Shown: piece after piece, positions 10,300 through 24,177 of the stretch
Layout: every line of letters starts with the position of its first letter
Numbering within the stretch: position 1 is the stretch's first letter
Assembly: GCF_013408655.1 (NCBI RefSeq)
Contig: NZ_JACCBP010000001.1
Span: 3,472,001 to 3,536,000, forward strand
From: Pigmentiphaga litoralis
GTDB taxonomy: Bacteria > Pseudomonadota > Gammaproteobacteria > Burkholderiales > Burkholderiaceae_B
DNA length: 64,000 nucleotides
Direction of reading: 5' to 3'
Made by a program: the position numbers and the translations under genes
The notes under the pieces: generated by a model
What the model was told of the DNA's origin: nothing
Database searches by the model: none
Seen by the model: the letters and a program-made list of their open reading frames with translations, nothing else

Positions 10300-12654
10300 A
10301 TGGATGCCGCCACTTTTCACGCCACGCACCGCCTGTCGGTCGGGGGAATGACCTGCGCCTCGTGCGTGGGGCGGGTCGAACGCACTTTGCGCAAGCTGCC
10401 GGGGGTGCGTGACGTGTCCGTCAACCTGGCGACCGAACAGGCGCACGTGGACGCCCCGGGCGTGCAGGTCGAAGCGCTGGCGGCCGCGATCGAAAAGGCC
10501 GGCTACGAGGCCCGCGCGCTGGCCGATGATACCCAGGCGCCGTCCAGCAAGCTGCCCGATGCCTGGCCGGTGGTGGTGGCCGCCATCCTGACCGCGCCGC
10601 TGATCCTGCCCATGGCCGGCATGCTGGCCGGCCGCGACTGGATGTTGCCGGGCTGGCTGCAATGGCTGCTGGCGACGCCGGTGCAGTTCTGGCTGGGCGC
10701 CCGCTTCTACCGCGCGGGGGCCAAGGCGGCGCTGGCTGGCACCGGCAACATGGACCTGCTGGTCGCATTGGGAACGTCCGCTGCGTATGGCCTGTCGGTC
10801 TGGCAATTGCTGCAGCATGGCGGCGATCACATGCCGCATCTGTATTTCGAAGCGTCTGCCGCGGTGATCACGCTGGTGCTGCTGGGCAAGTGGCTTGAAA
10901 CCCGCGCGCGCCGCCAGACCACCGAGGCCCTGCGCGCGCTGCAGGCCCTGCGGCCGGATACCGCGTGGGTGCGGCGCGCGGGGGGCGACGGCAAGGGCCC
11001 TGTCGAGGTGGAAATCCCGATCGATCACGTGCGGGTGGGTGACCTGGTGCTGGTCAAGCCCGGCGCGCGCATTCCGGTCGATGGCGACGTCGAAGAAGGC
11101 CGCAGCTATGCCGACGAGTCGATGCTGACCGGGGAAAGCCGGCCCGTGGAAAAGACCGTGGCCGACCGGGTCACCGGCGGGTCCATCAATGGCGACGGGC
11201 TGCTGGCGGTGCGCACGCGCGCCATCGGCAGCCAGACCACGCTGGCGCGCATTGTGCGGCTGGTAGAAGACGCGCAGGCCACCAAGGCGCCGCTGCAGCG
11301 GCTGGCGGATCGGGTCAGCGCCATCTTTGTGCCCATCGTGCTGCTGATTGCGCTGGTGACCTTGCTGGGCTGGGGCCTGACCACGCATGACTGGCCGCAG
11401 GCGCTGCTCAATGCCGTCGCCGTGCTGGTGATTGCCTGCCCGTGCGCACTGGGGCTGGCCACGCCCGCGGCGATCATGGCCGGGACCGGCGTGGCCGCGC
11501 GTCACGGCATTCTGATCAAGGATGGCCAGGCGCTGGAAACCGCGCACCGGGTGGATTGCGTGACCTTCGACAAGACCGGCACGTTGACAGCCGGGCATCC
11601 GACGTTGACGGTGATCAAGGCAGTGGGCGGGGATGCGTCCAATGCCGCCGTGCTGCGGCTGGCGGCCGCCTTGCAGCGGGGCAGCGAACATCCGCTGGCC
11701 AAGGCGGTGCTGGACGCGCAGGCGGCGCGGGGCGGTGACGTCCCGGCCAGCGATCAGACGCAAGCCTTGCCTGGCAAGGGCCTGCAAGGTGACGTGGAAG
11801 GCCGCCGCGTGTGGCTGGGCAGCGGCGCGTTGATGCGCGATCTGGGCGTGGCGACCGATGTGTTGAAGGTGGCGGCGCGGGAAGCGGAGGCAGCCGGCTA
11901 CACGGTGTCATGGCTGGCGGCGGATGACGCGTCGGCCGCGTCAACGGGCGCAGCGGCGACCTCGGCGGGCAACGGCACGTCCGCGAATGACGCCGGGCCG
12001 AACATTGGCCCCCACGCCCCCACCCTGCTCGGCGTGCTGGCTTTTGGCGACACGATCCGCCCGGAATCCGCAGCCGCAGTGGCGGAACTGCATCGGCTGG
12101 GCGTGCAGGTCGTGCTGCTGACCGGCGACAACGCGGGCAGTGCGGCGGCGGTGGCCGATGCGCTCAACATCGACCACGTGGAAAGCCAGATGCTGCCCGC
12201 CGACAAGGTTGCCGCCGTGGCGCGGCTGCGCGCGGAACGGCGGCGGGTCGCCATGGTCGGGGACGGCATCAACGATGCGCCTGCCTTGGCCACCGCCGAT
12301 GTGGGCATCGCCATGGCCAGCGGGTCCGACGTGGCCATGCAGACGGCAGGCATCACCTTGATGCGCAATGACCCGGGGCTGGTCGCGGATGCCATTGCCA
12401 TCTCGCGCCGCACGACGCACAAGATCCACCAGAACCTGTTCTGGGCCTTTGCCTACAACGTCGTCGGCATTCCGCTGGCGGCAATGGGATGGCTGAACCC
12501 CGTGCTGGCCGGCACCGCCATGGCGCTGAGCAGCGTGTGCGTGGTCAGCAATGCCGTACTGCTGCGCCGCTGGTCACCCGCGCCGCGGCGGGCAGCCCCG
12601 CCGGGGCAGGCAGCATCCAACGGGGTGACGACCGCACTTGCCAAGGAGGCTTGA
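10300..12654 (+). CDS. copA: Cu(I)-exporting P1B-type ATPase
   Basis: CopA pumps Cu(I) out of the cytoplasm using ATP. One N-terminal heavy-metal-associated domain carries GMTCASC (Cys 19 and 22). The transmembrane metal site is CPC at residues 380-382 in [12 protein letters not shown], the phosphorylated Asp is near residue 424 in DKTGTLT, and the hinge [10 protein letters not shown] is near 655. The actuator TGES is also present. The 784-residue length is standard for a one-HMD copper ATPase. An Ala/Gly/Thr/Ser-rich insert (~545-570) interrupts the ATP-binding domain just before FGDTIRPE and looks disordered. cueR follows with a one-base gap. Confidence 0.96.
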
Positions 12655-12655
12655 G

Positions 12656-13069
12656 ATGAACGCGCTCAATATTGGTGACGCGTCAAAAGCGTCGGGCGTG
12701 TCGGCCAAGATGATCCGGCACTACGAATCGATCGGGCTGATCCCTGCCGCGCGGCGCACCGACGCCGGCTACCGGCTGTACAAGGACGACGACATCCACA
12801 CCCTGCAGTTCATCCGCAACGCGCGGGACCTGGGCTTTTCGATCGCGCAGATCGATACGCTGCTGCAGCTGTGGAAAGACCGGGGCCGGCCCAGCGCCGA
12901 TGTGAAGACGCTGGCGATGGGGCATATCCAGGAACTGGACGACAAGATCCGCGCCTTGCAGGCCATGCGCGACACGCTGGAAAACCTGGCTTCGCACTGC
13001 CACGGCGATCATCGGCCGGACTGCCCGATTCTTGCTGGACTGGAAGGGCAGCCCGCGATCACCTGCTAG
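12656..13069 (+). CDS. cueR: Cu(I)-responsive MerR-family regulator
   Basis: CueR senses Cu(I) and distorts long-spacer promoters to activate copper efflux. The N-terminal winged HTH reads NIGDASKASGVSAKMIRHYESIGL, followed by the MerR coiled coil. The C-terminal copper loop has two cysteines, in SHCHGDHRPDCPIL, as in CueR. The start ATG at 12656 follows AAGGAGG inside the copA end, giving 137 aa. It is encoded with copA and probably binds the 10191-10221 site. Confidence 0.93.
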   Translation: MNALNIGDASKASGVSAKMIRHYESIGLIPAARRTDAGYRLYKDDDIHTLQFIRNARDLGFSIAQIDTLLQLWKDRGRPSADVKTLAMGHIQELDDKIRALQAMRDTLENLASHCHGDHRPDCPILAGLEGQPAITC

Positions 13070-13103
13070 CATGTGCACTGCACCATCGTCTGAAGGAGAC
13101 CGC

Positions 13104-13391
13104 ATGAAACGAACGTTGACCGTTATTGCCGCAGCCGCCGCGTTGCTGGCGACCAGCCTGGTCATGGCCGCATCGGCCAATACCAGCGGCGAAGTGCGTC
13201 GCATCGACGCCGCCGCAGGCAAGATCACCATCAAGCACGGCGCGATTTCCAATCTGGATCTGCCCGCGATGACCCTGGTCTTTCACGTGGCCGACCCGGC
13301 CATGCTGCAGAACGTGAAGCCGGGCGACAAGGTCCGCTTCGCGGCCGACAAGATCAACGGCCAGTACACGATCACCGCGCTGGAGCGCTGA
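13104..13391 (+). CDS. Periplasmic CusF-like copper-binding protein
   Basis: The 95-residue protein has a signal peptide (residues ~1-25, ending near VMAASA) and a small beta-barrel domain. It contains GEVRRIDAAAGKITIKHGAI, LDLPAMTLVFHV and VKPGDKVRFAADK, the CusF_Ec pattern. CusF binds Cu(I)/Ag(I) with two Met, one His and one Trp; here the KHG histidine and PAMT methionine are visible, while the tryptophan position is occupied by Phe. AAGGAG precedes the ATG. It is the last gene of the copA-cueR group and probably a periplasmic copper chaperone. Confidence 0.85.
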   Translation: MKRTLTVIAAAAALLATSLVMAASANTSGEVRRIDAAAGKITIKHGAISNLDLPAMTLVFHVADPAMLQNVKPGDKVRFAADKINGQYTITALER

Positions 13392-13400
13392 TCGTTGCTG

Positions 13401-14114
13401 TCATTCCCGCCCGGGCGCCACCGTGTGTGTCGCCATCGCGAAGTGTGCGTTGCTGCCGGTGAACGGCGGGAATTGTTCAAAGTCGGCGCGCATGCGGTGG
13501 CGCACGTCGGATTGCAGGGCGTCCGTCAGGCAAGCGGCGCTGTCGAACACCAGCTTGTTGCGCTGCATGTACGCCACCCGTTCCCACGGCATGGCGTCGC
13601 ACCAGTCCACGCGTGAAAAGATCTCGATCTCGCGAATACCTGGAAAGTCTTTCATGATCTGCGGATGGTGCGACAGGTAGTAGCTGTGCCATGCATTCAG
13701 ATCGGCGGCCTGGCCGGGGTAATGCACCAGGTAGCTGCAGGGCAAGGTATCGGCCGCGGCGTCAGCGCGCGCGTCGATGACCGGGAAGGGGCGCGTCACC
13801 ATGACTTGCTGCGTGACGTGCGTGCCCGCCAGGCTCGGCAGTGCACTGGCATCGGCCAGCTGCTGCAGATGGCCGTTGGCCGCGACGGCGGCTTCCAGTT
13901 CCGGCAACTCATTGAACTTCAGCTGCATCATGAACAGCGGTGACGGGCCGTCATCGGTGTAGTAGTCGCGTGCCGACTCAGGGGTGAACAGATGCGCCAG
14001 GCGCAGCCCCGGCGTGCCCAGCACGACGGTCCGTATGGCTTCCAGATCAGCGGACGACAGGCGCGCCGTCGGATCGTTTTCATGCCGGAACGTGACGATG
14101 TAGGAAAAGCGCAT
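13401..14114 (-). CDS. Conserved protein, possible tandem dimeric alpha/beta-barrel domains
   Basis: The family is not recognised with certainty. The 237-residue protein has two similar-sized halves: residues ~1-110 (starting MRFSYIVTFRHEN) and ~125-237 (starting with a YLVHYPGQ element and a WHSYYLSHHPQIMKDFPGIREIEIFSRVDW stretch). The second half resembles EthD/REDY-type small ferredoxin-fold proteins, with HHP-IM--FPG. There is no signal peptide. It is the last gene of the minus-strand catabolic unit and lies 50 bases after the asparaginase-like gene, so it may act on a ring-cleavage product. That role is inferred. Confidence 0.55.
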   Translation of the reverse strand: MRFSYIVTFRHENDPTARLSSADLEAIRTVVLGTPGLRLAHLFTPESARDYYTDDGPSPLFMMQLKFNELPELEAAVAANGHLQQLADASALPSLAGTHVTQQVMVTRPFPVIDARADAAADTLPCSYLVHYPGQAADLNAWHSYYLSHHPQIMKDFPGIREIEIFSRVDWCDAMPWERVAYMQRNKLVFDSAACLTDALQSDVRHRMRADFEQFPPFTGSNAHFAMATHTVAPGRE

Positions 14115-14164
14115 GCGGAACTCCGGTCAGCTGGGGACGGATGGCGGTGCAACGCAGACCGCCA

Positions 14165-15232
14165 TCAATACGCAAACAACATCTGCTGAATCACCTGGGG
14201 ATCGTCGGTCCGCACCAGCGCCAGCATCAGCAGGATGCGCAGCTTCTGCGGCGACAGGTCGCCGCCTGCCAGGATGCCGTCGGCGGACAGAAAGCGTTGC
14301 ACCGGCACCGTGCCGCGCGCTGCCCGGGTCGACTGCACCACAGTCACGCCTTGAGCCACGGCATCGACCAGCCCGGCGCGTTCGCCACTGGCCGGACGAC
14401 CGGGCGGCAGCCCCGCGCTGATGATGCCGCGCGTGCCGGCGGCGACCAGCGCGTCGATCACGACGCGGTCGGCGCCCGCGTACGACAGCACGATGTCCAC
14501 CCGCGGCAGGGCCCCCACATCGGCCAGGTTCGTGATCGGCAACCTGCCCGCGGGCCGCACGGGCAGACGGCGCAGCGCGACCTGCCCTTGTGCATCGATG
14601 CGGGCCAGCGGCCCAAAGCCCGGCGCTTCGAACGCGGCCAGCTCGAAGCTCGATACCTTGGTGGCGTCCCGCGCGGGCAGCACGACGTTGTCCATCACCA
14701 CCAATACGCCCAGATCCCGCAAGGCGGGCGAGCACGCCGCAGCCAACGCGGCGCGCAGATTCACGCACGCGTCGGACCCCTCGGTGTTGGACGGCCGCTG
14801 TGCGCCGGTCACGATCACGGGAATGTCCAGTGCCAGCGTCAGGTCAAGGAACCAGGCGGTTTCTTCGAGGGTGGCAGTGCCATGCGTGATGACGATGCCG
14901 TCCAGCAGAGGATCGTTGGCGATCGTTGACGAAATCAACAATGACAGCGCCAGCCAGTCCGCCGGTACGATGCCGGTGCTGCCCAGCGCACGAAACCCGA
15001 TCGGGACGATATCGATGTGCGGCGCGAGTTCGCCCATCGTCGTCAGCAAGTGATCAATGCCAAGGATCACGCCGCTTTCGCTGTACTCGACCCAGTCGAA
15101 TCGATGGCGCGCCTGCATGGCAAAAGTGCCACCGGTGCCGATGACGGCGATACGCGGACGCCGCGATGACGCCGCAGTCCTGCTCGACATGCCTGTCACG
15201 CCTATGGCCGCCCTGCCCGGCTCGCTCGTCAC
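14165..15232 (-). CDS. Asparaginase/glutaminase-family protein with altered active site
   Basis: The ~355-residue cytoplasmic protein belongs to the bacterial asparaginase family: IGTGGTFAM at the N-terminus carries the nucleophile-loop Thr. The second conserved motif reads ITHGTATLEETA, with Ala where nearly all family members have Asp (HGTDT). That Asp normally holds the substrate alpha-amino group, so the substrate may lack one. GAQRPSNTEGSD stands where MRPxxxxSADGP is usual. The GTG at 15232 overlaps the Rieske ferredoxin stop (GTGA) and was preferred; an ATG at 15190 is possible. The position after PyrDK-like genes suggests hydrolysis of an amide from a ring-degradation intermediate. 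Confidence 0.8.
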   Translation of the reverse strand: MTSEPGRAAIGVTGMSSRTAASSRRPRIAVIGTGGTFAMQARHRFDWVEYSESGVILGIDHLLTTMGELAPHIDIVPIGFRALGSTGIVPADWLALSLLISSTIANDPLLDGIVITHGTATLEETAWFLDLTLALDIPVIVTGAQRPSNTEGSDACVNLRAALAAACSPALRDLGVLVVMDNVVLPARDATKVSSFELAAFEAPGFGPLARIDAQGQVALRRLPVRPAGRLPITNLADVGALPRVDIVLSYAGADRVVIDALVAAGTRGIISAGLPPGRPASGERAGLVDAVAQGVTVVQSTRAARGTVPVQRFLSADGILAGGDLSPQKLRILLMLALVRTDDPQVIQQMLFAY

Positions 15233-15621
15233 CCTTCCACCTTCACGTACACCCCGCCCTGATAGAAACGGACCGGATGGGTGCGCACCGGACGCGTCAC
15301 CGGCGAACACATGGGCTTGCCCGATCGCACGTCGAACACGCCGCCATGGAGCGGGCACTCCACTTCAAAGCCGTCCAGTTCGCCGTCAGTCAACATGGCG
15401 TGACCGTGCGTACACAGATCGTCAATGGCATAGACCTCGTCATCGACCAGGAACAGGCCGACCTTGACGCCGTTGACCGTTGCCTGCAGGCACGGCGAGT
15501 CGCCAAAGCAGGCGTCGCGCGGACCCAGGTCATGCCAGTCAGCACCCGGGGCGCCGTCGTGCAGGTCGTTGCCGTGATCATCGCCACGATCACTGCCCGC
15601 CCCTGAAATCATTGCGTTCAT
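15229..15621 (-). CDS. Rieske-type [2Fe-2S] ferredoxin
   Basis: The 130-residue protein has an Asp/His/Gly-rich N-terminus (~1-25) and a Rieske domain with ligands in CTHGHAM and CPLHGGVFD (C-x-H and C-x2-H). Ferredoxins of this type pass electrons from a reductase to a Rieske oxygenase, here probably the one at 19408-20688. The ATG overlaps the stop of the PyrD-like gene (ATGA) and its own stop overlaps the asparaginase-like start, so the three genes are translationally coupled. Confidence 0.92.
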   Translation of the reverse strand: MNAMISGAGSDRGDDHGNDLHDGAPGADWHDLGPRDACFGDSPCLQATVNGVKVGLFLVDDEVYAIDDLCTHGHAMLTDGELDGFEVECPLHGGVFDVRSGKPMCSPVTRPVRTHPVRFYQGGVYVKVEG

Positions 15622-16547
15622 AAGGTCGCCCTCCGTTCCAGCATCACAGGTTCGAACATCTGCATCGCGCCGATCAGGTCGCGGATGCGCGAGATGCCGC
15701 GGCGCTGGCAGAAGGCCGCCAGGTCGTCGATCATGCGCGGCATGGCATTCGGGCTGACGAAGCTGGCGGTGCCGATCTGCACCGCGCTGCAACCCGCCAG
15801 CATGTATTCCAGCGCGTCGTTCGCGTCCGAGATGCCGCCGCAACCGATCACCGGAATCGACACCGCCTGCGCGCATTGGTAGGCCATGCGCAGGATGATG
15901 GGCTTGGTGGCGCGGCCGGTAATGCCGCCCATCAGGTTGGCGACCTTGGGGCGGAAGGTGTCGACATCGATCGCCATGGCCAGCAACGCGTTGGCCGCGA
16001 CGATGGCATCCGCGCCGCCCCGTTCGGCGGCCCGCGCCACGGCAGCCATGTTGCCCGCGTTGGGCGTCATCTTGGCCCATACCGGCACCTTGGTCGCGGC
16101 CTTCATGGCGCGCACCACCTGCTCGGTCGCATCGGCATCCATGCCGAAGGCCTGTCCGTCTTTCTTGATATTCGGGCATGACACGTTGGCTTCGATGGCC
16201 ATCACGCCCGGCACCGAAATGCGCGCGGCCAGGTCGGCAAAACCTTCCACCGTATCGGCCGAAATGCTGGCGATCAGGGGTGGCACATAGCCGGTATAGA
16301 ACGGCACCAGTTCGTTCACATAGTGGTCGGCGCCCTTGCTCGGAATGCCGATCGAAAACAGGGTCGCGTCGCGGAACTCGGCAATGCGCGGCGGCGGATT
16401 GCCTTCGCGCACGTCGTGCGTGATGGTCTTGCTGACAATGGCGCCCAGCAGGTTCAGATCGATCACCTTGGCCATGCCTTCACCAAACGTGCCTGACCCG
16501 GGCATCACGGGATTGGCCAGCGTCATGCTGCCTATCGATACGCTCAT
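15618..16547 (-). CDS. PyrD-like (class 1B) dihydroorotate/dihydropyrimidine dehydrogenase subunit
   Basis: The FMN TIM-barrel of about 309 residues matches class 1B dihydroorotate dehydrogenases: NPVMPGSGTFGEG at the N-terminus, the catalytic cysteine in ANVSCPN, KMTPNA, AANALLAMAIDV and the phosphate-binding GCGGISDANDALEYMLAG. The ATG at 16547 gives MSVSIGSMTLANPVM; a GTG at 16556 overlaps the PyrK-like stop and is an alternative. Setting inside a Rieske-oxygenase operon rather than with pyr genes argues for a catabolic substrate such as a dihydropyrimidine or another N-heterocycle. The exact reaction is inferred. Confidence 0.85.
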   Translation of the reverse strand: MSVSIGSMTLANPVMPGSGTFGEGMAKVIDLNLLGAIVSKTITHDVREGNPPPRIAEFRDATLFSIGIPSKGADHYVNELVPFYTGYVPPLIASISADTVEGFADLAARISVPGVMAIEANVSCPNIKKDGQAFGMDADATEQVVRAMKAATKVPVWAKMTPNAGNMAAVARAAERGGADAIVAANALLAMAIDVDTFRPKVANLMGGITGRATKPIILRMAYQCAQAVSIPVIGCGGISDANDALEYMLAGCSAVQIGTASFVSPNAMPRMIDDLAAFCQRRGISRIRDLIGAMQMFEPVMLERRATL

Positions 16548-16555
16548 GTCTACCA

Positions 16556-17440
16556 CTATACGGTCTCCTGCAGATCGAACACCGGGCCGTCCCAACACAC
16601 CCGCTTGTAGGTCAGCACGGTGGCGCCGGGCGCCTTGCGAAAGGGTTTGACGCAGCCATAGCACATGCCCAGCGCGCATCCCATGTGCTGTTCCAGCGCG
16701 ACCTGACCCGGTACGTGCAGGTCGTCGCTCAGCCGCTGCAGCAACAGCAGCAGGCGGTTGGATCCGCAGGTCGTCAGCAGATCGAAGGGTTCGCGCGCAT
16801 GCAGGTCGCGGATCAGGCTTTCGACATGCACGATGTCGCTGGTCTGTTCGTCGTCGGTCACGGTGTGGACCCGTGCACCGACCTCACGCAGATACGCTTC
16901 GGACATGACCAGGGCCGGGCTGCGCGCACTCAGCACCGCGGTCACGGCAGCGCCTTGCCGGATCGCATAGTCGGCCAGCGGCGCCAGCGTGGCCAGGCCC
17001 ACGCCCCGGGCCAGCAACAGCACATGGCGGCAGTCCGCCGGCAGGTCGAAGCCCACGCCCACCGGGCCGACGGCGTCCAGGGTGTCGCCCGGATTGAGGA
17101 AAGCCAGCCCCCGCGTGCCCGCGCCCTGCACCTTGTACAGAAATTCGACGTGGCCTTGCGCCGGGTCCACCCGGTACAGACTCATGGGCCGGCGCAGGTA
17201 GGGGCTGTCGGTGCCGCTGGGTGGGCAGGCCAGATGAAAGAACTGCCCGGGCCGCGCGGTCAATGCGATAGGCGGCGCTTTCAAGACCAGGTGTTTGTAT
17301 TCGGGATTGACCCAGTCGTTGGACAGCACGGTGCACAGGTTTTCTGCCACCGTGAATGCCGGGGCCGGACGGTCGGACAGCGGCCGGTCGCACGCCGGGG
17401 CGGCCGTGCCACCCACGACGTGCAGGGGGGGACTCAACAT
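16556..17440 (-). CDS. PyrK-like FAD/[2Fe-2S] electron-transfer subunit
   Basis: The ~294-residue protein is like the PyrK subunit of class 1B dihydroorotate dehydrogenase. The FAD-binding region has LRRPMSLYRVDPAQGHVEFLYKV, followed by NAD-binding LLLARGVGLATLAPLADY. The C-terminal cluster has four closely spaced cysteines in MGCALGMCYGCVKP plus a later Cys in KRVCWDGPVFD. PyrK passes electrons between NAD and the FMN of PyrD. It directly precedes the PyrD-like gene. The ATG at 17440 overlaps the SnoaL-like stop. Confidence 0.85.
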   Translation of the reverse strand: MLSPPLHVVGGTAAPACDRPLSDRPAPAFTVAENLCTVLSNDWVNPEYKHLVLKAPPIALTARPGQFFHLACPPSGTDSPYLRRPMSLYRVDPAQGHVEFLYKVQGAGTRGLAFLNPGDTLDAVGPVGVGFDLPADCRHVLLLARGVGLATLAPLADYAIRQGAAVTAVLSARSPALVMSEAYLREVGARVHTVTDDEQTSDIVHVESLIRDLHAREPFDLLTTCGSNRLLLLLQRLSDDLHVPGQVALEQHMGCALGMCYGCVKPFRKAPGATVLTYKRVCWDGPVFDLQETV

Positions 17441-18036
17441 GATGGCGGACTCTCCAGTGTCATGGACGACGCAGACCGGCGGCTTGCCAGCGCGGCCAGG
17501 GTGGCTGCCAGCGGCGCGGGACCGCGTCCGACGGGCAGCATGTGCAGTTGCTCGAAGCGCATCCGGCTGTGCAGCCAGGCGCCATCGGCTTGGCGTGCAT
17601 AGGATTCGTGGGTGACCGCCGCGAGCAGCACGGCTTCGCGCGTGTCGTCGGCCATGGCGATCTGCCACAGGCGCCACGTGCCGGTGGCCGCGTCGCCCTG
17701 CACGTCGATGACCGGGCTGCCGTAGTAATGCACGGCAAAGCACCAGGGGGACTGCTGGAACCAGGCGAACAAGGCATCGCGCCCGACGCGGTTCGCGCCG
17801 AAGCCTTCACCGGCTTCCCACACGGCGTTGTCGGTGAAGCACTGCGCCTGTTGCCAGGCCACCTGGCGCATCGTGTCGGCATCGACCCGCGCGTAATCCG
17901 CCGTGTACTTCGCATCGGCCAGGGCGCCGTAGCGTGCCTTCAGCGACTGGATGGCCGCCAGGGATTCGAGGCGGTCCAGGCGGTCGGCCAGCGATAGGGA
18001 GTCGTCTGTGGCGGCGAAGCGCGGCGAAGACATCAT
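17434..18036 (-). CDS. SnoaL/NTF2-like protein
   Basis: The 200-residue protein has a predicted NTF2-like core: LADRLDRLESLAAIQSLKARYG forms the first helix, followed by WEAGEGFGANRVGRDALFAWF and HYYGSPVIDV. This fold includes SnoaL cyclases, ketosteroid isomerases and the beta subunits of ring-hydroxylating oxygenases. The usual beta-subunit length (~160-180) and presence in the same operon allow that it is the small subunit of the Rieske oxygenase. It might equally be an isomerase. It overlaps the neighbouring genes by a few bases on both sides. Confidence 0.7.
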   Translation of the reverse strand: MMSSPRFAATDDSLSLADRLDRLESLAAIQSLKARYGALADAKYTADYARVDADTMRQVAWQQAQCFTDNAVWEAGEGFGANRVGRDALFAWFQQSPWCFAVHYYGSPVIDVQGDAATGTWRLWQIAMADDTREAVLLAAVTHESYARQADGAWLHSRMRFEQLHMLPVGRGPAPLAATLAALASRRSASSMTLESPPSC

Positions 18037-18617
18037 GATGGGGACGCTGCGGTGGACGTAACTGCGGGGGGCGTGGCGGGGGGCGTGGCCATGGCCGGGG
18101 CCGCGGGCACGGAATCGGCCGCGTTGACCGCCGCCGCCTCGTCTTCCGGCACGCCCGGCTCACGCACCAGCACGCGGTACAGCACGCCCCGCGCGGACGT
18201 GCAGCGCCACGTGCGGGCCTCAAACTCCGGTATCACGATGGCTTCGCCACGCGCCAGGTCGTAGCTTTCGCCCGCGGCGTCAACATGGAACTGGCCTTCC
18301 AGCACGGCGGCAACTTCTTCGCCGATCGCATCGGCATCCGCACTGACCGTCTCACCTTCAGCGAACACACGGATGGCCACATCAAAGGCCTTGCCGGTGG
18401 CATCGAACTGCTGGCCGGCGGCGTCCGCAGCGCGCCATTTGGCGCCTGCGTCAACGCGCAGGCAATGTGCGGACCCGGCATGCTCCGCGCGGGTGGCCGC
18501 AGCATCCGCAACCGTGGCAACCGTAGCATCCGTAACCGCAGCACCCGCAACCGCAGCACCCCGTGCGGCGCCCTCGTGCGCAAGGCCTTCACCGCCCGAA
18601 CCATTCATCGCGTTCAT
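18033..18617 (-). CDS. Cupin-domain protein with low-complexity ends
   Basis: Residues ~50-165 form a cupin-like domain (FDVAIRVFAEGETVSADAD, EEVAAVLEGQFHVDAAGESYDLARGEAIVIPEFEAR). The family HxH metal motif is not seen in the usual place, so metal binding is doubtful. Residues 15-48 are an Ala/Val/Thr-rich stretch encoded by degenerate ~12-base repeats at about 18482-18550, and the tail is Pro/Ala/Thr-rich. The ATG overlaps the upstream cupin stop (ATGA). The role is unknown; it may be a non-enzymatic binding partner in the pathway. Confidence 0.65.
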   Translation of the reverse strand: MNAMNGSGGEGLAHEGAARGAAVAGAAVTDATVATVADAAATRAEHAGSAHCLRVDAGAKWRAADAAGQQFDATGKAFDVAIRVFAEGETVSADADAIGEEVAAVLEGQFHVDAAGESYDLARGEAIVIPEFEARTWRCTSARGVLYRVLVREPGVPEDEAAAVNAADSVPAAPAMATPPATPPAVTSTAASPS

Positions 18618-19030
18618 GCCTGCGTCTCCCTGTCCTTGAGCGGGTAATACGGCGTCGTGTCTTCCGGCCCATATTCCTTGCGCGCAGGCGTCACCACATT
18701 CAGTCGCAGGCTGATACCGGCAGGCTCGAAGCGATTGCCGCCGTAGTGCATCACGTCACCCGGAATGATCAGCGCATCGCCTTCATCCATCACGAATTCG
18801 AGATCGCCCGGCGCGCCCAATCCTTCGAACACCGAACAGCCGCCACTGACCTGCAGCGACGCTTCTTCGCCATGGGCGTGTGCCTTGGCGGGCAGATCGC
18901 GCCCGGCGCCTTCGACGAACTTCACGACTGCCACGCTGATGTGTTTGCCGAACAAGTGCTTCATGTACAAGCCACCGGGCACCACTTCCTTCAGGCTGTC
19001 ATCGATACCGAACACTCTGCATTTGGCCAT
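18614..19030 (-). CDS. Cupin-domain protein
   Basis: The 138-residue single-cupin protein includes KAHAHGEEASLQVSGGCSVFEG (cupin motif 1 with HxH and Glu) and DALIIPGDVMHYGGNRFEPAG (motif 2 with His). The metal triad is plausible. Small cupins of this type are often dioxygenases or isomerases of degradation intermediates. Here the product sits between the Rieske oxygenase and PyrDK-like genes. Substrate unknown. Confidence 0.75.
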   Translation of the reverse strand: MAKCRVFGIDDSLKEVVPGGLYMKHLFGKHISVAVVKFVEGAGRDLPAKAHAHGEEASLQVSGGCSVFEGLGAPGDLEFVMDEGDALIIPGDVMHYGGNRFEPAGISLRLNVVTPARKEYGPEDTTPYYPLKDRETQA

Positions 19031-19047
19031 GGTGAATGCTCCTGGAC

Positions 19048-19395
19048 TCAGAGGGAAGGACGCAGCACGAAGCTTTCGTTCGCTATGAATCGGCGGGGAT
19101 CGTAGCCATCGATAACGGCGGGCTGCTTGTAGAACTCCACGGCCGGACCCACCTCGGCCAGCGACAGCAGCAAGTACATCAGCGGTTTGTCTTCATCGGG
19201 CAAGGCGTCGATCGGATGGCGATCCAGCCACGCAACAAGGGCATCGACCTCGGGCAACATCGCGTCCTTGAACGCCAGAATGTCGGCCATCGAGCTGGTG
19301 TTGCGCAGCGTGTTGCGTTCGGTCTCGGTGGCCAGGCACCAGCGCGTGAAAGGCGCCAGGTGGGCGAAGGCATCAGGCAAGGTAATGGATGACAT
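19048..19395 (-). CDS. Small conserved hypothetical protein of the Rieske operon
   Basis: The 115-residue protein is not recognised. It is mostly helical by appearance (AFAHLAPFTRWCLATETERN, EVDALVAWLDRHP) with a WxR-type start and a C-terminal FIANESFVLRPSL. There is no signal peptide or cysteine motif apart from one Cys. The ATG at 19395 was chosen; a TTG at 19407 is possible. It lies 12 bases after the Rieske oxygenase gene and may be an accessory subunit. It could instead be a stabilising protein. Confidence 0.6.
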   Translation of the reverse strand: MSSITLPDAFAHLAPFTRWCLATETERNTLRNTSSMADILAFKDAMLPEVDALVAWLDRHPIDALPDEDKPLMYLLLSLAEVGPAVEFYKQPAVIDGYDPRRFIANESFVLRPSL

Positions 19396-19407
19396 CAACG
19401 ATTCCAA

Positions 19408-20688
19408 TCAGCGTGCGGCGTCGGCCTGGACCAGCCCGTCGACCACCTTGTAGTTGTGGCGAACCAGCAGTTCATAGTCCTGCAGGATCATGTGTTTCTT
19501 CACGCCTGTCTGTGCCGCGGTCTGGGTGCGCTCCAGCGTGCTCAAGTCTTCGAGCAGCACATCGCGCAGCGCCACCTTCATGTATTCCAGAAAGAAGCGG
19601 CCGCCTGCGGTGGGCATGTCGGGGTAATAGACGCGAGCTTCGAGCAGCGTGCGGTTGTGCGAAATGGGACGGAAGTTGTAGGCCTGGCAGTAGTTGGGCC
19701 GCAAGGACAGATAGAACTCGGGGAACACGACATTGATGTCGAACAGCCAGTTGTCACTGCCCGTCCAGTTCATGCCCTTGGGCAGTGTGTCGAGCCGGAA
19801 TTCATGCGTGGCGCTGCCCATCCCGGCACGCAGCGCGGCGGCAGCGATCGGGCGGGTGGCGGCCGACTCGGCCAGGGCTTCGCGCGCCGCTTCCCCGCCC
19901 GAGGTCACGGCCTTGGGATTGCCGTACACCGACTTCGGGTTGCCCGCCAATGACAGCCGGCGATGGAATTCGCCACACAGCGCGTCCAGCGGCCGCATCG
20001 ATCCGCCGTCGCTTTTGTCGATCGCGTCGGCGATCGAATGGCCGTGCACATAGGCCACGTGATAGGCCTCCTGGAAGGCGTCCAGCGCCAGCTTCCAGTT
20101 GCAGTTGACCTCGGTCGTCCACGAAAAGCCGGTGGTCAGCTTGTCGAAGGGATAGCCTTCGATGTCGCCATACATGGGCTTCATGAAGTCCGCGAGGGAC
20201 AGGGCGGGTTCGGGGTCCATGTTGACGAAGATGAAGCCTTGCCACACCTCGCAGGCGACCCGCGACAGCCCGTAGTCGACCTTGTCCAGATCGAAAAAGC
20301 AGCCCTCTTCCGGCACGCCGGTCAGCTTGCCGTCCAGGTCATAGGCCCAGCCGTGGAACTTGCAGAAGAACTTGCGCGCCTTGCCGCAGGGCTCGTACAC
20401 GACCTGGTTCATGCGGTGCGCACAGACGTTGTGCATGGCGCGGATCACGCCCTGCTTGTTGCGCACCACGATGATCGATGTATCGCAGGCTGCCAGATCC
20501 TTGACGAAATAGTCGCCCACCCCGGGGATCTCTTCGACGCGCCCGACGTGCAGCCACGTCTTCTTGAAGATCTTTTCCTTTTCCTGCGCGAAGTAGGCCG
20601 GCGAGATATAGGGTTCGACCGGCACCGGCCCGGTGCCCAGTTCAGGGTAACGATCATGCAGTCTTGCGGTCGTCCGGCTCATGCCCAT
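19408..20688 (-). CDS. Aromatic ring-hydroxylating (Rieske) oxygenase alpha subunit
   Basis: The 426-residue subunit has an N-terminal Rieske domain with CAHRMN (C-x-H) and CKFHGW (C-x2-H) and a C-terminal catalytic domain with the mononuclear iron motif DAFQEAYHVAYVHGHS (E-x-x-H-x4-H). These enzymes add O2 to aromatic or heteroaromatic rings or demethylate them. It is the first gene of a nine-gene minus-strand run. The partner ferredoxin is at 15229-15621 and the reductase could be the PyrK-like protein. ATG at 20688 or 20682 are both possible; the TTG at 20694 is less likely. The substrate is not evident. Confidence 0.88.
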   Translation of the reverse strand: MGMSRTTARLHDRYPELGTGPVPVEPYISPAYFAQEKEKIFKKTWLHVGRVEEIPGVGDYFVKDLAACDTSIIVVRNKQGVIRAMHNVCAHRMNQVVYEPCGKARKFFCKFHGWAYDLDGKLTGVPEEGCFFDLDKVDYGLSRVACEVWQGFIFVNMDPEPALSLADFMKPMYGDIEGYPFDKLTTGFSWTTEVNCNWKLALDAFQEAYHVAYVHGHSIADAIDKSDGGSMRPLDALCGEFHRRLSLAGNPKSVYGNPKAVTSGGEAAREALAESAATRPIAAAALRAGMGSATHEFRLDTLPKGMNWTGSDNWLFDINVVFPEFYLSLRPNYCQAYNFRPISHNRTLLEARVYYPDMPTAGGRFFLEYMKVALRDVLLEDLSTLERTQTAAQTGVKKHMILQDYELLVRHNYKVVDGLVQADAAR

Positions 20689-20702
20689 CCCCAAGCTTCA
20701 AT

Positions 20703-20821
20703 AATGAACGTCATTCTGTATTACGCCAAACACGCATGTCAACGGAATTTGCGAAACGTCCGGCCGGTCATGGGCACCGCCCGGAAATAAGGTGTTTGCG
20801 GATTAAAAAAAGAATGTCATT
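20703..20821. promoter_or_regulatory. Divergent control region with two AATG(A)-n-TCATT palindromes
   Basis: The 226-base spacer between the Rieske operon and the ABC operon is A/T-richer than its surroundings. It contains AATGA-ACG-TCATT (20703-20715) and AATG-T-CATT (20813-20821), about 107 bases apart, close to the two divergent starts. Such paired dyads are typical regulator sites, and the TetR protein encoded at the end of the ABC operon is the natural candidate. Promoter hexamers are not clear enough to place. Confidence 0.45.
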
Positions 20822-20914
20822 ATTTATTTACAAACGAAAACGCTGATCCGCCATCAGGACCCGGCTGTCACCGGCCGGGCTCCGCCGACCGCTGTCCAAC
20901 TCTGGGAACATGCC

Positions 20915-21907
20915 ATGTCACCGCTTTCGCTGCCGGCGCCCCGCCGCCTGTTTGTCCCCCGTGCCCGCCGGGTTGCCTGCACGTTTCTCCGCACCGCCGC
21001 CCTCGCCTGCGCCACTGCACTTGCAGTGGCGCCCGTCCACGCGCAGACCGCTGCCGCACCGGTGCGTATCGGCACCGGCATCGACGCGGCCTACACGCCC
21101 TGGTACCTGGCCAACAGCCAGAAGGGCTTCGACAAGGCAGGACTCAAGGTCAACTTCAAGAAATTTGCGAATGGCGGCGAAGCGCTCGACGGCTCGCTCG
21201 CGGGCATGATCGATATGTCCGGCGCGGCCGAACCCAGCGTGCTGGTGCGCATGGCCCATGGCGACGTGCGCGCGCTGGCGGTGTTCGGGCAGTCCGCCAA
21301 CTTCATCAAGCTGGCCGTGCGGCCGGGCATTACCGACGCCAGGCAGATCAAGAAATATGGCGTGATTGCGGGCAGCGTCAGCGACTATGCGACAGTCAAA
21401 TTGCTTGAGAAGAACGGGATCGATCCGGCGTCGGTGCAGATCATCAAATCCGGGCCGCCCGAGCTGCCGGCCCTGCTCACGTCCGGCGCAATCGACGCCT
21501 TCTTTTCGCCCGAGCCGTGGCCGTCATTGGCAGTCAAACAGGGCGCGAAGATTTTGATGAACAGCGGCGACGTCGGCTACACCTTCACTTTGTGGGTGAC
21601 GGCCGCCGGCCCTTGGTTCGACACCCATCAGGACGACGCCCGGCGTGTGGTGGCCAGCCTGGCCCAGGCGTGCCGCGAGATCCGCGCCGACCCCGCCAAG
21701 GGCGCCGCGGCCGCGCAGGCCGAGACCAAAGCGCCGCCGGCCATGACCCTGAGCTTTCTGTCGGAAGTGGACTGCACGGTGCGCGACTTCACCGACCAGG
21801 ACATGGCCAGCTACGACCAGATCGCCGACTTCCTGGCCAAGGCCAAGATCACTCCCACCCGCGTCGACTTCCGGAAGTCCATGGTCCGCGGCTTCTACAA
21901 GGAATGA
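20915..21907 (+). CDS. NMT1/SsuA-type ABC transporter substrate-binding protein
   Basis: The 330-residue protein has an N-terminal signal peptide (to about residue 44, ending VHAQTAAA), with a long Arg-rich n-region. The mature part starts VRIGTGIDAAYTPWYLANSQKGF and includes YGVIAGSVSDYATVKLLEKNG, the NMT1/Thi5-like binding fold. This group collects sulfonates, nitrate, pyrimidine-type precursors and aromatic acids. It is the first gene of the ABC operon and is divergent from the Rieske oxygenase, so its ligand is probably the substrate of that pathway. Confidence 0.88.
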   Translation: MSPLSLPAPRRLFVPRARRVACTFLRTAALACATALAVAPVHAQTAAAPVRIGTGIDAAYTPWYLANSQKGFDKAGLKVNFKKFANGGEALDGSLAGMIDMSGAAEPSVLVRMAHGDVRALAVFGQSANFIKLAVRPGITDARQIKKYGVIAGSVSDYATVKLLEKNGIDPASVQIIKSGPPELPALLTSGAIDAFFSPEPWPSLAVKQGAKILMNSGDVGYTFTLWVTAAGPWFDTHQDDARRVVASLAQACREIRADPAKGAAAAQAETKAPPAMTLSFLSEVDCTVRDFTDQDMASYDQIADFLAKAKITPTRVDFRKSMVRGFYKE

Positions 21908-21911
21908 CGCC

Positions 21912-22706
21912 ATGGTTCCCGGCGCGGCAATCCATATCGACCGGCTGTCCATCGACCTGGGCGGGCAGTGCATTGTTGGTGAAACGTCGCTGGACGTGGC
22001 GCCCGGTGAATTCGTCTGTCTGCTCGGCCCCAGCGGCTGTGGCAAATCCACGCTGCTCAATGTGATGGCGGGCTTTCTGCCAGCACAAGGGCGAGTCACG
22101 GTGGGCGGCGTTCCTGTCACGGGGCCCGGCGTGGACCGCGGCGTGGTATTCCAGAGTACCGAAGCCCTGTTCCCGTGGCTGACCGTGACCGAAAACGTGA
22201 TGTACGGCCCACGCCTGCGTGGCCTGTCGCGCAAGGACTGCGCCGCCAAGGCGCGCCACTACATCGACATGGTCGGGCTGACGCATGCCGCGCACAAGTT
22301 TCCGCGCGAGCTGTCGGGTGGCATGCGGCAACGGGCGCAGATTGCGCGCGTGTTGGTCAATGAACCGTCGGTGATCCTGATGGACGAGCCGTTCGGCGCG
22401 CTCGATGCGCAAACGCGCGAAGTCATGCAGCGCGAAGTCGATCGCATCCGCCGCGCGGCCCAGGCCACGGTGGTGTTCGTGACCCACGACATCTGGGAAG
22501 CCATTGTGCTGGGCGACCGGGTCATCACCATGACGGCGGGCCCGCAGGCGCGCATCAAGTCCGACATCCGGGTCGACCTGCCCGCGCCGCGCGACCAGGC
22601 CGATCCCGACGCGATCCGGCTCTACAGCACGATCCGCGACGGCATTGCGGCGGAAGTGGACAAGGTCATGCGACGGCAAGGCCTGGTGCGCGAGGTGGCC
22701 GCATGA
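21912..22706 (+). CDS. ABC transporter ATP-binding protein
   Basis: This NitT/TauT-type ATPase (264 aa) has Walker A GPSGCGKST, Q-loop QSTEALFPWLTV, signature LSGGMRQR, Walker B VILMDEPFGALDA and the H-loop in FVTHDIWEA. It energises uptake of the ligand bound by the product at 20915-21907. The gene is 4 bases after the receptor gene, and its stop overlaps the permease start. Confidence 0.93.
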   Translation: MVPGAAIHIDRLSIDLGGQCIVGETSLDVAPGEFVCLLGPSGCGKSTLLNVMAGFLPAQGRVTVGGVPVTGPGVDRGVVFQSTEALFPWLTVTENVMYGPRLRGLSRKDCAAKARHYIDMVGLTHAAHKFPRELSGGMRQRAQIARVLVNEPSVILMDEPFGALDAQTREVMQREVDRIRRAAQATVVFVTHDIWEAIVLGDRVITMTAGPQARIKSDIRVDLPAPRDQADPDAIRLYSTIRDGIAAEVDKVMRRQGLVREVAA

Positions 22707-23521
22707 ACGCGTCCGCCAAGATCGTCACCGCGCCGCTGGCTGCCCCGCGCCGCCCGGCGTTCCGGCTGGGCGCCTTCGGTCCGTCGGTGACCGGCCTTGT
22801 GTCGGTGCTGGCCGGGCTGTTGCTGTGGCAATTGGTCAGCCTGCGCGTGCCGCCGTTGTTCCTGCCCTCCCCTTCGGCCACCTGGGCCGGCGCGGTCGAA
22901 CTGGCGCAAGACGGCACGCTGTGGGGATCGGTCGTGGCATCGCTGCGCCGCATCCTGATCGGCTGGGCCATCGGCGTTGCCGTTGGCGTGCCGCTGGGCA
23001 TTCTGATGGGCCAGTTCCGGCTGCTGCGCCGCCTGCTCGATCCCTATATCGAGTTCTTCCGCTTCGTGCCGCCCATTGCTTTCGTGACGCTGGCGGTGAT
23101 CTGGCTCGGCCCCGATGAAAGCTCCAAGATTGCGCTGATCGTCTACACCACCGTGTTCATCGTCACCCTGAACATGATCGCAGGCGTGCAGTCCGTGGAT
23201 CCCTTGCGCGTGCGGGCGGCTGCCGCATTGGGCGCCGGGCCGGTCAAGACGCTGTTCTCGGTCGTGGTGCCGTCCACCGTCCCGTTCATGGTGACCGGCG
23301 CCCGGCTGGCCATGGGCAATTCCTTCTTGACCATCGTGTCGGCCGAGATCGTTGCGGCGCAGGAAGGCCTGGGCGCGCTCATCTGGGCGTCGCGCAACTA
23401 CGCGCGGACCGATTGGGTGTTCGTCGGGATCATTACCCTGGGCCTGTTGGGATTTGTGATCGACCGGATCGTGCGCTGGGTCGCAAAGAAGATGCTGTCG
23501 CGCTACGACGTCGCGCTGTAG
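22703..23521 (+). CDS. ABC transporter permease
   Basis: The 272-residue inner-membrane protein has about six hydrophobic segments (first near VTGLVSVLAGLLLWQLVSL) and the EAA loop region (RVRAAAALGAGPVKTLFSVVVPSTVPF) that contacts the ATPase. It is of the SsuC/TauC/NitT type. It starts with ATG overlapping the ATPase stop. With a single permease gene the transporter is expected to use a homodimer. Confidence 0.92.
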   Translation: MNASAKIVTAPLAAPRRPAFRLGAFGPSVTGLVSVLAGLLLWQLVSLRVPPLFLPSPSATWAGAVELAQDGTLWGSVVASLRRILIGWAIGVAVGVPLGILMGQFRLLRRLLDPYIEFFRFVPPIAFVTLAVIWLGPDESSKIALIVYTTVFIVTLNMIAGVQSVDPLRVRAAAALGAGPVKTLFSVVVPSTVPFMVTGARLAMGNSFLTIVSAEIVAAQEGLGALIWASRNYARTDWVFVGIITLGLLGFVIDRIVRWVAKKMLSRYDVAL

Positions 23522-23592
23522 ACGTGAGGGCGGACGCGGGCTGTTCTACACTGCCCGCATCCAGACCACACCTACAACAGCAAAGAGACACC

Positions 23593-24177
23593 GTGCCGCA
23601 AGTCAAGAAACAGGGGATGCGGGAAGCCATCGTGGAAGCTGCGTTCCACCTCTTCTCGCAAAAAGGCTATACCACCACGACCATGGCGGAGATCGCCCGG
23701 GCGGCCAACATGACCGTGGCCAACCTGTATGTGTATTTCGATTCGAAGCTGATGATCCTGTACGAGATCTACCGCCCCTGGTTGGGCGGCCAGCTGGACA
23801 CGCTGCGGCAGGCGGTGCGCCGGTCGCGCTCGCCGCGCAGCAAGCTCAAGCGTATCTTCATGGGGATCTGGGACGACATTCCGAAGGCGGAACACTCGTT
23901 TGCGAACGCGCTGATCGAGGCGCTGGCCTCGGCGCCGCAAAACATGGGCAAGCCCACCGATCTGCTCGCCACGGTCGAAACCTTCCTGACCGAGATGATC
24001 CTGGAAAGCCTGCCGCCCGAGCGCCAGAGCCTGGCCAAGGACGGCCTGCTGGCGCACGTGATCTGGATGGCGTTTGACGGATTCGTAATCAATCAGCGAA
24101 TCGGCGACGTACGGAATATTTCCGCAGTCGCCGATCTGATGACGGACCTGCTGCTGGGCGAGACGCCCAGCCGTTGA
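23593..24177 (+). CDS. TetR-family transcriptional regulator
   Basis: The 194-residue protein has an N-terminal HTH (TTTTMAEIARAANMTVANLYVYFDSK) followed by a ligand-binding helical domain. The GTG at 23593 gives VPQVKKQGMREAIVEAAF; an ATG at 23617 would be too close to the HTH helix. It lies 71 bases after the permease, so it may be in the same operon. It is likely to control the Rieske and ABC units through the dyads at 20703-20821. Confidence 0.88.
   Translation: MPQVKKQGMREAIVEAAFHLFSQKGYTTTTMAEIARAANMTVANLYVYFDSKLMILYEIYRPWLGGQLDTLRQAVRRSRSPRSKLKRIFMGIWDDIPKAEHSFANALIEALASAPQNMGKPTDLLATVETFLTEMILESLPPERQSLAKDGLLAHVIWMAFDGFVINQRIGDVRNISAVADLMTDLLLGETPSR

Follow-up and report, generated by a model that had tools for sequence, protein, structure and literature searches.

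The iac pathway, which converts the auxin indole-3-acetate to catechol, shares with the family of loci described here an oxygenase alpha subunit (427 aa), a 125-aa protein, the SnoaL-fold protein IacI, an amidase, an MFS carrier, adjacent cat genes and, if the pathway proposed below is correct, a catechol product; it differs in the presence of the beta subunit IacD, the flavoprotein IacA, the SDR protein IacE and a MarR- or LysR-type regulator (accessible sections of PMC11676955, PMC7225977 and PMC9613470). According to the available portions of PMC7225977 and PMC9613470, the intermediates of the step that leads from the N-containing ring to catechol are not yet established; the term 'dihydroorotate' is absent from the main text of PMC11676955 and PMC9613470. 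The lumichrome (riboflavin) operon of N. simplex is similar in that a molybdenum hydroxylase is followed by a Rieske oxygenase that removes a fused N-ring from the benzene ring to yield a catechol, and in that a cupin is present, but it employs an alpha/beta oxygenase (LumCD), a P450 and other hydrolases (PMC12746152, in the parts available); neither 'asparaginase' nor 'dihydroorotate dehydrogenase' occurs in the text of that paper.

Another related gene set is found on the Acinetobacter plasmid pYH12138-1, where genes for an oxygenase, a 117-aa protein and an NTF2 protein are consecutive, with a Rieske ferredoxin, an amidase-family gene and catechol genes (catA, catC and a cycloisomerase gene) nearby. 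The proteins of the Pigmentiphaga litoralis locus are 38% (oxygenase), 42% (small protein), 26% (NTF2) and 44% (ferredoxin) identical to these. Unlike the Pigmentiphaga locus, which has no styrene/indole-type monooxygenase with a flavin reductase in the operon, the Acinetobacter cluster encodes such a monooxygenase, a flavin reductase, an SDR and an acetamidase/formamidase-family protein, whereas PyrDK, asparaginase and cupin are not annotated in that stretch. Judging from gene spacing, this cluster probably corresponds to one in A. piscicola p38, with genes for an oxygenase (1684), a monooxygenase (1687), a reductase (1688) and a ferredoxin (1690), of which 1684 is listed as induced by indole and by skatole (PMC11434297, accessible part).

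Gene organization and recurrence of the operon

In P. litoralis, a 64-kb window (the entire stretch of DNA analyzed) contains a ten-gene operon on the minus strand (20694-13401), with overlaps between coding regions at five of the nine junctions; an importer and a TetR gene on the plus strand face it.

20682 or 20694 to 19408, minus strand: Rieske oxygenase alpha subunit (Pfam domains Rieske and Ring_hydroxyl_A)
19395-19048, minus strand: 115-aa companion protein, gap of 12 after the oxygenase gene
19030-18614, minus strand: cupin A, gap of 17 after the gene for the 115-aa protein
18617-18033, minus strand: cupin B, overlap of 4 with cupin A; Cupin_2 match below the cut-off
18036-17434, minus strand: SnoaL_4/NTF2-fold protein, overlap of 4 with cupin B
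17440-16556, minus strand: PyrK-like FAD/[2Fe-2S] electron-transfer subunit (DHODB_Fe-S_bind), overlap of 7 with the SnoaL_4 gene
16547-15618, or from a GTG start at 16556, minus strand: PyrD class 1B-like FMN subunit, gap of 8, or overlap of 1 with the GTG start
15621-15229, minus strand: Rieske-type ferredoxin, overlap of 4 with the PyrD gene
15232-14165, minus strand: asparaginase-fold amidase, overlap of 4 with the ferredoxin gene
14114-13401, minus strand: EthD-like protein, gap of 50 after the amidase gene (TIGR02118, 30.7 vs 30.5 bits)
20915-21907, plus strand: ABC substrate-binding protein, NMT1_2/SsuA family
21912-22706, plus strand: ABC transporter ATPase
22703-23521, plus strand: ABC transporter permease, TauC/SsuC-like
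23593-24177, plus strand: TetR-family regulator

This cluster is a genuine operon: the identical gene order is found again in other genomes, which rules out a chance arrangement. An earlier note on this DNA had described the same tightly packed minus-strand genes, all of which are present, although the span that it gave stops short of the EthD-like gene. Among the ten proteins there is no match to Ring_hydroxyl_B (the oxygenase beta subunit), no M20 carbamoylase-family protein and no counterpart of IacA or IacE. The oxygenase, small protein and NTF2-type trio is homologous to that of Acinetobacter, with two cupin genes intervening here between the small protein and SnoaL. A tRNA scan of the window returned none, and an Rfam search of it gave a single distant match to the SAH riboswitch.

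The recurrence of the gene set was assessed in 40 loci, 38 of the 77 found in a single oxygenase-seeded scan together with two (L023 and L024) from a plasmid collection; all their oxygenases score above 500 bits, and the 39 weaker loci are left out of the counts. These loci are mutually related, so that the counts are not independent, and several end at contig edges (e.g., L029). A core consisting of the oxygenase, the 115-aa protein, the cupins, SnoaL, the ferredoxin and the asparaginase-like protein recurs in these mainly proteobacterial loci: the oxygenase, the 115-aa protein and cupin A are present in all 40, SnoaL and the amidase in 39 each, and cupin B in 36. PyrK and PyrD are both present in 29, often accompanied by the EthD-like gene (20 of 40). 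A molybdenum hydroxylase gene is found nearby in seven loci (plus one weak match) and a maleate-isomerase/EutA/arylmalonate-decarboxylase-like gene in 20; these two genes and the MFS gene of the relatives are all absent from the Pigmentiphaga operon.

PyrKD is tightly linked to the core, yet accessory. In one genus, four of 34 genomes encode PyrD (E 1e-85), and the oxygenase (E 1e-60) is found in the same four; in another, with 144 genomes, each of the 13 operon-type PyrDs has genes for SnoaL, PyrK, the ferredoxin and the amidase as flanking neighbors. Conversely, in eight of the nine whole genomes with a PyrKD-less locus (some of them draft or metagenome assemblies), no PyrD match was detected at E 1e-50, and in the remaining one, PyrD is encoded elsewhere, so that the PyrKD step is dispensable for the core. 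Thus, the central genes, whose co-conservation the earlier note had proposed as a test, do occur together across related genomes. The operon is conserved and apparently undescribed: no description of the gene set was found in paper titles and abstract openings, which is weak evidence of novelty given that subscription journals were mostly uncovered.

Predicted active sites of the encoded proteins

The operon PyrD passes the curated class 1 models (PRK07259, 318.7 vs 269 bits; TIGR01037, 286.7 vs 270) and, like the L. lactis PyrDB/PyrK enzyme (1ep1-1ep3), comes with both subunits, the catalytic Cys of the FMN subunit and the cysteine motif of PyrK, which aligns with 1ep3_B and keeps the FAD and [2Fe-2S] layout. 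Unlike in the L. lactis enzyme, two pocket residues are replaced in every operon member examined. At Asn72 and Thr194 (L. lactis numbering), which we take to be orotate-contacting positions, Phe and Ala are found in 36 of 36 operon-type rows (30 distinct; Phe64 and Ala187 in Pigmentiphaga) compared to Asn and Thr in 15 of 15 orotate-type rows. A second, PyrD-seeded sample yields the same partition (16 of 16 vs 23 of 23), with the Phe/Ala proteins coming from one genus (13) and, newly fetched, from another (three). Genes for SnoaL, PyrK, the ferredoxin and the amidase flank each of these 16, and none of the 23 Asn/Thr proteins has a SnoaL, ferredoxin or amidase gene next to it. The orotate-type PyrKD proteins form a separate sister group, with M20 hydrolase genes adjoining three of these loci (L002, L025 and L026) and, once, a dihydroorotase gene. 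Judging from these alignments, the substrate pocket of the operon PyrDK has probably been rebuilt for a molecule other than orotate; the pocket changes and the different neighbors of the Asn/Thr proteins also argue against uracil and hydantoin as substrates. Kynurenate, which resembles orotate in shape, is a conceivable one. A housekeeping role is ruled out by the class 2, quinone-dependent PyrD of the host genome (C1:71818; 524.2 bits vs the NCBIfam cut-off of 457). As the genome additionally contains an orotate-type PyrKD pair (L002), the operon PyrD has other copies beside it; a single copy is the outcome that the earlier note had named as refuting its reading.

The amidase belongs to the fold family of E. 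coli AnsB and keeps T12, Y25, S58, T89 and K162 (AnsB numbering) in 43 of 43 rows (40 distinct), but differs at positions 59, 90, 248 and 283. In all of these rows, D90 is replaced by Ala and N248 by Gly, Q59 is Thr or Val (Thr in Pigmentiphaga), and Glu is never found in the aligned 283 column. We take Gln59, Asp90, Asn248 and Glu283 of AnsB to recognize the alpha-amino group, and T12, Y25, T89 and K162 to be catalytic. The loss of the former and retention of the latter would suit a C4 mono-amide without an alpha-amino group as the substrate. The protein also scores below the cut-offs of the asparaginase models (TIGR00520, 229.4 vs 314.3 bits; PRK11096, 206 vs 506). The annotations 'dihydroorotate dehydrogenase' and 'asparaginase' in the database records of operon members are probably wrong.

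The oxygenase scores above the cut-off for both Pfam domains and falls in a single clade of 40 rows (support 100/100). Residues C87, H89, C107, H110, H208, H213 and D379, presumably the ligand positions, are invariant among 21 sequences. The 115-aa protein is modeled as four helices (pLDDT 92.5); it has no convincing Pfam match, its best match in a fold search of the PDB is only at E 3.7, and none of its 67 relatives carries a functional name among the names shown. Cupin A contains an invariant metal-type motif (His51, His53, Glu55/56 and His95 in an alignment of 19 sequences) and has no match up to E 1 in a PDB sequence search; in cupin B, the complete metal motif was not seen on inspection by eye. 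Asp41, His103 and Arg122 of the SnoaL_4 protein are invariant (23 sequences), and its model is closest to LinA-type dehydrochlorinases among the best 50 matches listed in a fold search. With the residue roles that we assume for LinA as the comparison, the protein is likely lyase-like; the same 50 matches favor a lyase over an oxygenase beta subunit. The closest models for the ferredoxin are of the AndAb and HcaC types, both below the cut-off.

Importer, regulator and operator-like sites

The earlier note had linked the importer to carriers of pyrimidine precursors. This link is not borne out: the nearest relatives of the importer belong to the SsuA/taurine/nitrate group, and the binding protein is encoded in only two of the 40 related loci. 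Most related loci (29 of 40, one match being weak) have a TetR homologue in the vicinity of the oxygenase gene. Two operator-like sites lie in the divergent promoter region:

20703-20715, minus strand: putative TetR operator AATGACGTTCATT, upstream of the oxygenase gene
20809-20821, minus strand: second candidate site AATGACATTCTTT, nearer the importer

A site of this kind is found in front of the oxygenase gene, in front of the importer genes and, in Cupriavidus (L040), in front of a separate PyrK-PyrD-EthD unit with its own TetR; AATGACATTCTTT, identical or as a near variant, also precedes the MFS gene in eight related loci. Shuffling gives an expectation of 0.26 of 41 at two or fewer mismatches, which is optimistic because the motif was derived from the same loci.

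Proposed pathway and alternatives

What is directly observed, namely the genes and their conservation, the recurrent operator-like site and the altered active-site residues, is best accommodated by a TetR-controlled catabolic operon for a carboxylated benzo-fused N-heterocycle (an oxindole-, indole- or 2-quinolone-type acid) that is degraded to catechol and a C4 amide, with PyrDK acting on the lactam ring; this reading is tentative, and we rate it somewhat below an even chance. The steps that we infer would be as follows. The ABC importer would take up the acid, which shares with orotate the unit N-CO-C=C-COOH, and PyrDK would be an NAD(H) flavoenzyme of the class 1B dihydroorotate dehydrogenase type, redesigned to add or remove hydrogen at the C=C bond beside the lactam carbonyl. 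The Rieske oxygenase, with the ferredoxin and the 115-aa protein, would dioxygenate the benzene ring at the N-bearing carbon, and the SnoaL-fold lyase could help expel the substituent to give catechol without a dihydrodiol dehydrogenase. The C4 mono-amide set free at this point, which would be maleamate-, succinamate- or oxosuccinamate-like, would be hydrolyzed by the amidase, and catechol would enter the ortho pathway. The ferredoxin in Pigmentiphaga would have to be fed by PyrK or by a reductase encoded elsewhere. The narrower version, possible but doubtful, is a new pathway for a plant- or alga-derived acid of the oxindole-3-acetate or 2-quinolone-4-carboxylate type, in which PyrDK would serve as a benzo-lactam dehydrogenase/reductase and the asparaginase would hydrolyze a C4 mono-amide. 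The benzene ring would then yield catechol, and the heterocycle a C4 acid and ammonia. If this is the case, a pair of nucleotide-synthesis proteins has been re-tooled for aromatic heterocycle catabolism, with the swap legible in two pocket positions, and the operon offers a genetic handle on the bacterial stripping of an N-ring from benzene to leave catechol.

The catechol end point draws on gene neighborhoods. A catechol 1,2-dioxygenase is encoded within 10 kb in seven of the 40 loci, among them L040 and L041, where its gene directly follows that of the amidase, and a muconate cycloisomerase in five; the catechol 1,2-dioxygenase-like gene of the host scores 380.5 bits, below the cut-off of 392. 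The kinship with the indole/skatole-type cluster of Acinetobacter and the molybdenum hydroxylase genes near some of the loci also speak for the proposed pathway. There is no such dioxygenase gene within 10 kb in the other 33 loci, and L058 and L073 contain a 3-carboxyethylcatechol 2,3-dioxygenase-like gene, so the ring product may differ. Moreover, the known related pathways differ among themselves: anthranilate is the end product of both the iif/ipo-dho (indole) and the iad (auxin) route, and oxidation of the indole 2,3-bond is reported for the Rieske-type IadDE (accessible parts of PMC12538310, PMC9613470 and PMC12633357); hence the benzene ring is not necessarily where the operon oxygenase acts.

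A non-fused heterocycle of the pyridine, pyrrole or pyrimidine type appears unlikely as the substrate. In this case, the oxygenase would hydroxylate the ring, cupin A would open it, maleamate would be hydrolyzed by the amidase with release of ammonia, and a maleate isomerase would produce fumarate. The metal-type motif of cupin A, the amidase changes, which fit maleamate, and the isomerase-like and molybdenum hydroxylase genes of the relatives are all compatible with such a route, but it leaves unexplained the catechol genes and the kinship with the indole/skatole-type cluster, and the isomerase-like gene is not only missing from this operon but is represented in the genome by copies that are at best 36-38% identical. 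It is still less probable that PyrDK, or PyrK alone, supplies electrons to the oxygenase, with PyrK reducing the Rieske ferredoxin with NADH in place of the absent reductase and PyrD being structural or vestigial. The intact cofactor layout of PyrK would allow this, and the window, which contains PyrK and the ferredoxin, has no FAD-type ferredoxin reductase (no match better than E 2), the homologues elsewhere in the genome being at most 40% identical. However, such a reductase is encoded within 10 kb in 37 of the 40 related loci, including all 29 with PyrK and PyrD (annotated as two pieces in L023), which rules out PyrDK as a general substitute; furthermore, the retained catalytic Cys and the uniform pocket change of PyrD are not expected of a vestigial partner, and in Cupriavidus PyrK-PyrD-EthD is a unit of its own.

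A second pyrimidine or orotate pathway, in which PyrDK would reduce an ABC-imported pyrimidine and the amidase would open or finish it, is very improbable. The scores of PyrD against the class 1 models and the hydrolase genes next to the sister PyrKD family are in line with it; against it, that family is separate, keeps Asn/Thr in both samples, has none of the operon neighbors in 23 loci and already has a member in the host genome, and the Rieske oxygenase would have no obvious role. Accordingly, the pyrimidine link drawn in the earlier note finds no support in the PyrD pocket or in the family relationships of the importer, whereas the rest of its scheme, namely oxygenation of an N-heterocycle, redox chemistry on the ring and amide hydrolysis, is still the best frame for this operon.

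Gene composition and spread of the cluster

The ten minus-strand genes of the operon and the four plus-strand genes opposite it were confirmed at the positions proposed in the earlier note, except that the EthD-like gene falls just beyond the start assigned there to the region. Five of the nine operon junctions are overlaps of 4–7 bases and three are gaps of 8–17 bases; a 50-base gap precedes the EthD-like gene. No dihydrodiol dehydrogenase is present among the ten operon proteins, and no ferredoxin reductase was found in the 64-kb window, whereas one is present in most related loci (see the table). The family assignment of the importer points to no ligand. On the plus strand, the operon is adjoined by genes for a heavy-metal P-type ATPase, a MerR regulator and a CusF-like protein (10300–13391), and the window also contains an S-adenosylhomocysteine riboswitch (62612–62713, plus strand; RF01057, 58.3 bits).

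Scanning one genome per species with the oxygenase as seed yielded 77 loci, 38 of which, together with two plasmid loci, make up a set of 40 defined by an oxygenase score above 500 bits. The hosts are Burkholderiaceae, Oxalobacteraceae, Pseudomonadaceae, Sphingomonadaceae/Sphingobiaceae, Paracoccaceae, Azospirillum, Pinisolibacter and three MAGs, one of them from Vulcanimicrobiota, and the 40 oxygenases form a single clade (support 100/100).

Genes detected by tblastn across the 40 loci
Oxygenase: 40/40
Small protein: 40/40
Cupin A: 40/40
SnoaL: 39/40
Asparaginase-like: 39/40
Ferredoxin reductase: 37/40
Cupin B: 36/40
Ferredoxin: 36/40
PyrK: 30/40
PyrD: 30/40
TetR: 29/40
MFS: 24/40
EthD: 20/40
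Maleate-isomerase/EutA-like: 20/40
Molybdenum hydroxylase: 8/40, one weak
Importer binding protein: 2/40

Among close relatives of the host the cluster is rare: in the 131 family and 399 order genomes sampled, the oxygenase was detected (E ≤ 1e-110) in the host genome only, and none was found at E 1e-60 in the four other sampled genomes of the host genus; the host probably acquired the cluster horizontally. The 115-aa small protein has a confident four-helix predicted model, for which no structural relative was found. Because it is also encoded 3' of distant oxygenases (L072, L080, L085 and other weaker loci), in places as several consecutive oxygenase-companion pairs, it appears to serve a wider oxygenase group as a general partner.

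PyrKD: copies, linkage and active site

A sole PyrD copy, as the earlier note recognized, would have made the operon pair biosynthetic. The whole host genome (G000, 6.17 Mb) contains four PyrD matches: the operon copy; L002, 59% identical to it and accompanied by a PyrK of its own and a gene of the M20 hydantoinase/carbamoylase family; L003, a distant DHO_dh-like protein; and L004, a quinone-dependent PyrD of class 2 that scores 524.2 bits (cut-off 457). The last is the expected biosynthetic enzyme, and a housekeeping role of the operon pair is very unlikely. The L002 pair (C1:4344285-4345178) lies between an MFS-like ORF and the M20 gene. Related pairs, one on a plasmid of P. putida, where dihydroorotase is also encoded, and one on a Roseomonas plasmid, look like parts of an orotate-degradation operon. 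In the plasmid collection, a PyrD relative occurs in 53 Klebsiella plasmid records, the one listed being 48.8% identical.

PyrK and PyrD occur together in 29 of the 40 loci. In 27 of these they are placed between SnoaL and ferredoxin, and L032 and L040 have PyrK-PyrD-EthD apart from the core; L029 ends at a contig edge after PyrK. PyrD-seeded samples provide a test of this linkage free of oxygenase bias. PyrD (E 1e-85) and the oxygenase (E 1e-60) are found in the identical four of 34 genomes of Herbaspirillum (the genus of L028), in accord with the co-occurrence expected in the earlier note. PyrD at E 1e-85 is present in 18 of 144 genomes of Paraburkholderia (the genus of L034), where all 13 operon-type copies have genes for SnoaL, PyrK, ferredoxin and the amidase on their flanks; six further copies, and 17 more in the order sample, are accompanied by PyrK only. 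At E 1e-50, PyrD is absent from eight of the nine whole genomes whose locus lacks PyrKD (L034, L039, L044, L045, L049, L054, L058 and L073) and is encoded elsewhere in the ninth (L041). Thus, PyrKD is strongly linked to the core, yet accessory. In Azospirillum L024, where the search covered the plasmid, a 96-aa ORF at the PyrKD position (13990-14280) fuses PyrK-like and PyrD-like pieces, a sign of past deletion. In another locus (L155, genome G672), the operon-type PyrD contains an in-frame stop, with SnoaL, PyrK, ferredoxin and amidase matches all present.

The columns of Asn72 and Thr194 of L. lactis PyrDB contain Phe and Ala in all 36 operon-type rows (30 distinct), Asn and Thr in all 15 orotate-type rows, and Ser and Ala in three distant ones. 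Pocket and context correspond without exception in the PyrD-seeded sample, with Phe/Ala in 16/16 flanked copies (13 Paraburkholderia, 3 Herbaspirillum) and Asn/Thr in 23/23 others. Given that the catalytic Cys, the Lys and two other Asn are retained, the chemistry of the operon enzyme looks preserved, with one part of the pocket now hydrophobic. In the asparaginase homologue, T12, Y25, S58, T89 and K162 are intact in 43/43 rows (40 distinct), and D90 is replaced by Ala, N248 by Gly and Q59 by Thr or Val in all of them. Under the residue roles that we assume for AnsB, this pattern points to an amide substrate with a carboxylate and without an alpha-amino group.

A putative route to catechol

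The SnoaL predicted model resembles LinA-type lyases and has an invariant Asp and His, comparable to what we take to be the LinA dyad. A catechol 1,2-dioxygenase-like gene is located within 10 kb in seven of the 40 loci (L024, L039-L041, L053, L055, L056) and a muconate cycloisomerase gene in five; a 3-carboxyethylcatechol 2,3-dioxygenase-like gene is found in L058 and L073, in the latter alongside a C-C-hydrolase-like gene, with a weak match in L044. Outside the 40-row clade, an annotated related cluster on an Acinetobacter plasmid encodes an oxygenase, a 117-aa protein and an NTF2 protein consecutively, with catA, catC and a cycloisomerase gene about 5 kb away and a styrene/indole-type monooxygenase. 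The spacing is the same in A. piscicola p38 (oxygenase 1684, monooxygenase 1687, reductase 1688, ferredoxin 1690), and the two clusters apparently correspond. The p38 study (PMC11434297) lists 1684 among the genes induced by indole and by skatole, and 1687 and 1690 among those that skatole induces; together, 1687 and 1688 are reported to break down both compounds.

These catechol genes, the indole/skatole-type kinship, the LinA-like SnoaL and the lack of a dihydrodiol dehydrogenase suggest that the substrate could be a benzo-fused N-heterocyclic acid. The oxygenase would attack the nitrogen-bearing carbon, the SnoaL-fold lyase would assist release to yield catechol, and the C4 amide released would be hydrolysed by the amidase. 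Against this proposal stand the iif/ipo-dho and iad routes, whose end product is anthranilate, and the reported action of IadDE on the indole 2,3-bond, so that the operon oxygenase need not attack the benzene ring. Under the catechol proposal, recruitment of PyrD would be explained by the N-CO-C=C-COOH unit that orotate shares with an oxindolylidene-acetate and with 2-quinolone-4-carboxylate.

Candidate operators

An inverted repeat, AATGA-CGT-TCATT, is located ahead of the oxygenase (20703–20715). With up to two mismatches, it is found in 25 of 41 upstream regions, compared with 0.26 expected from shuffles, namely in 25 of the 29 regions where a strong TetR is present and in none of the 12 others. 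A second site, AATGACATTCTTT (20809–20821), is closer to the importer, and in eight loci this sequence or one much like it stands before the MFS gene. No site was detected at one mismatch in the separate PyrK-PyrD-EthD unit of L032. The corresponding unit of Cupriavidus L040 bears such a site beside a second TetR. In L107 a site lies 5' of PyrK, and the short stretch covered there shows no TetR. On the strength of these shared sites, the importer, the oxygenase and PyrKD probably belong to one regulon.
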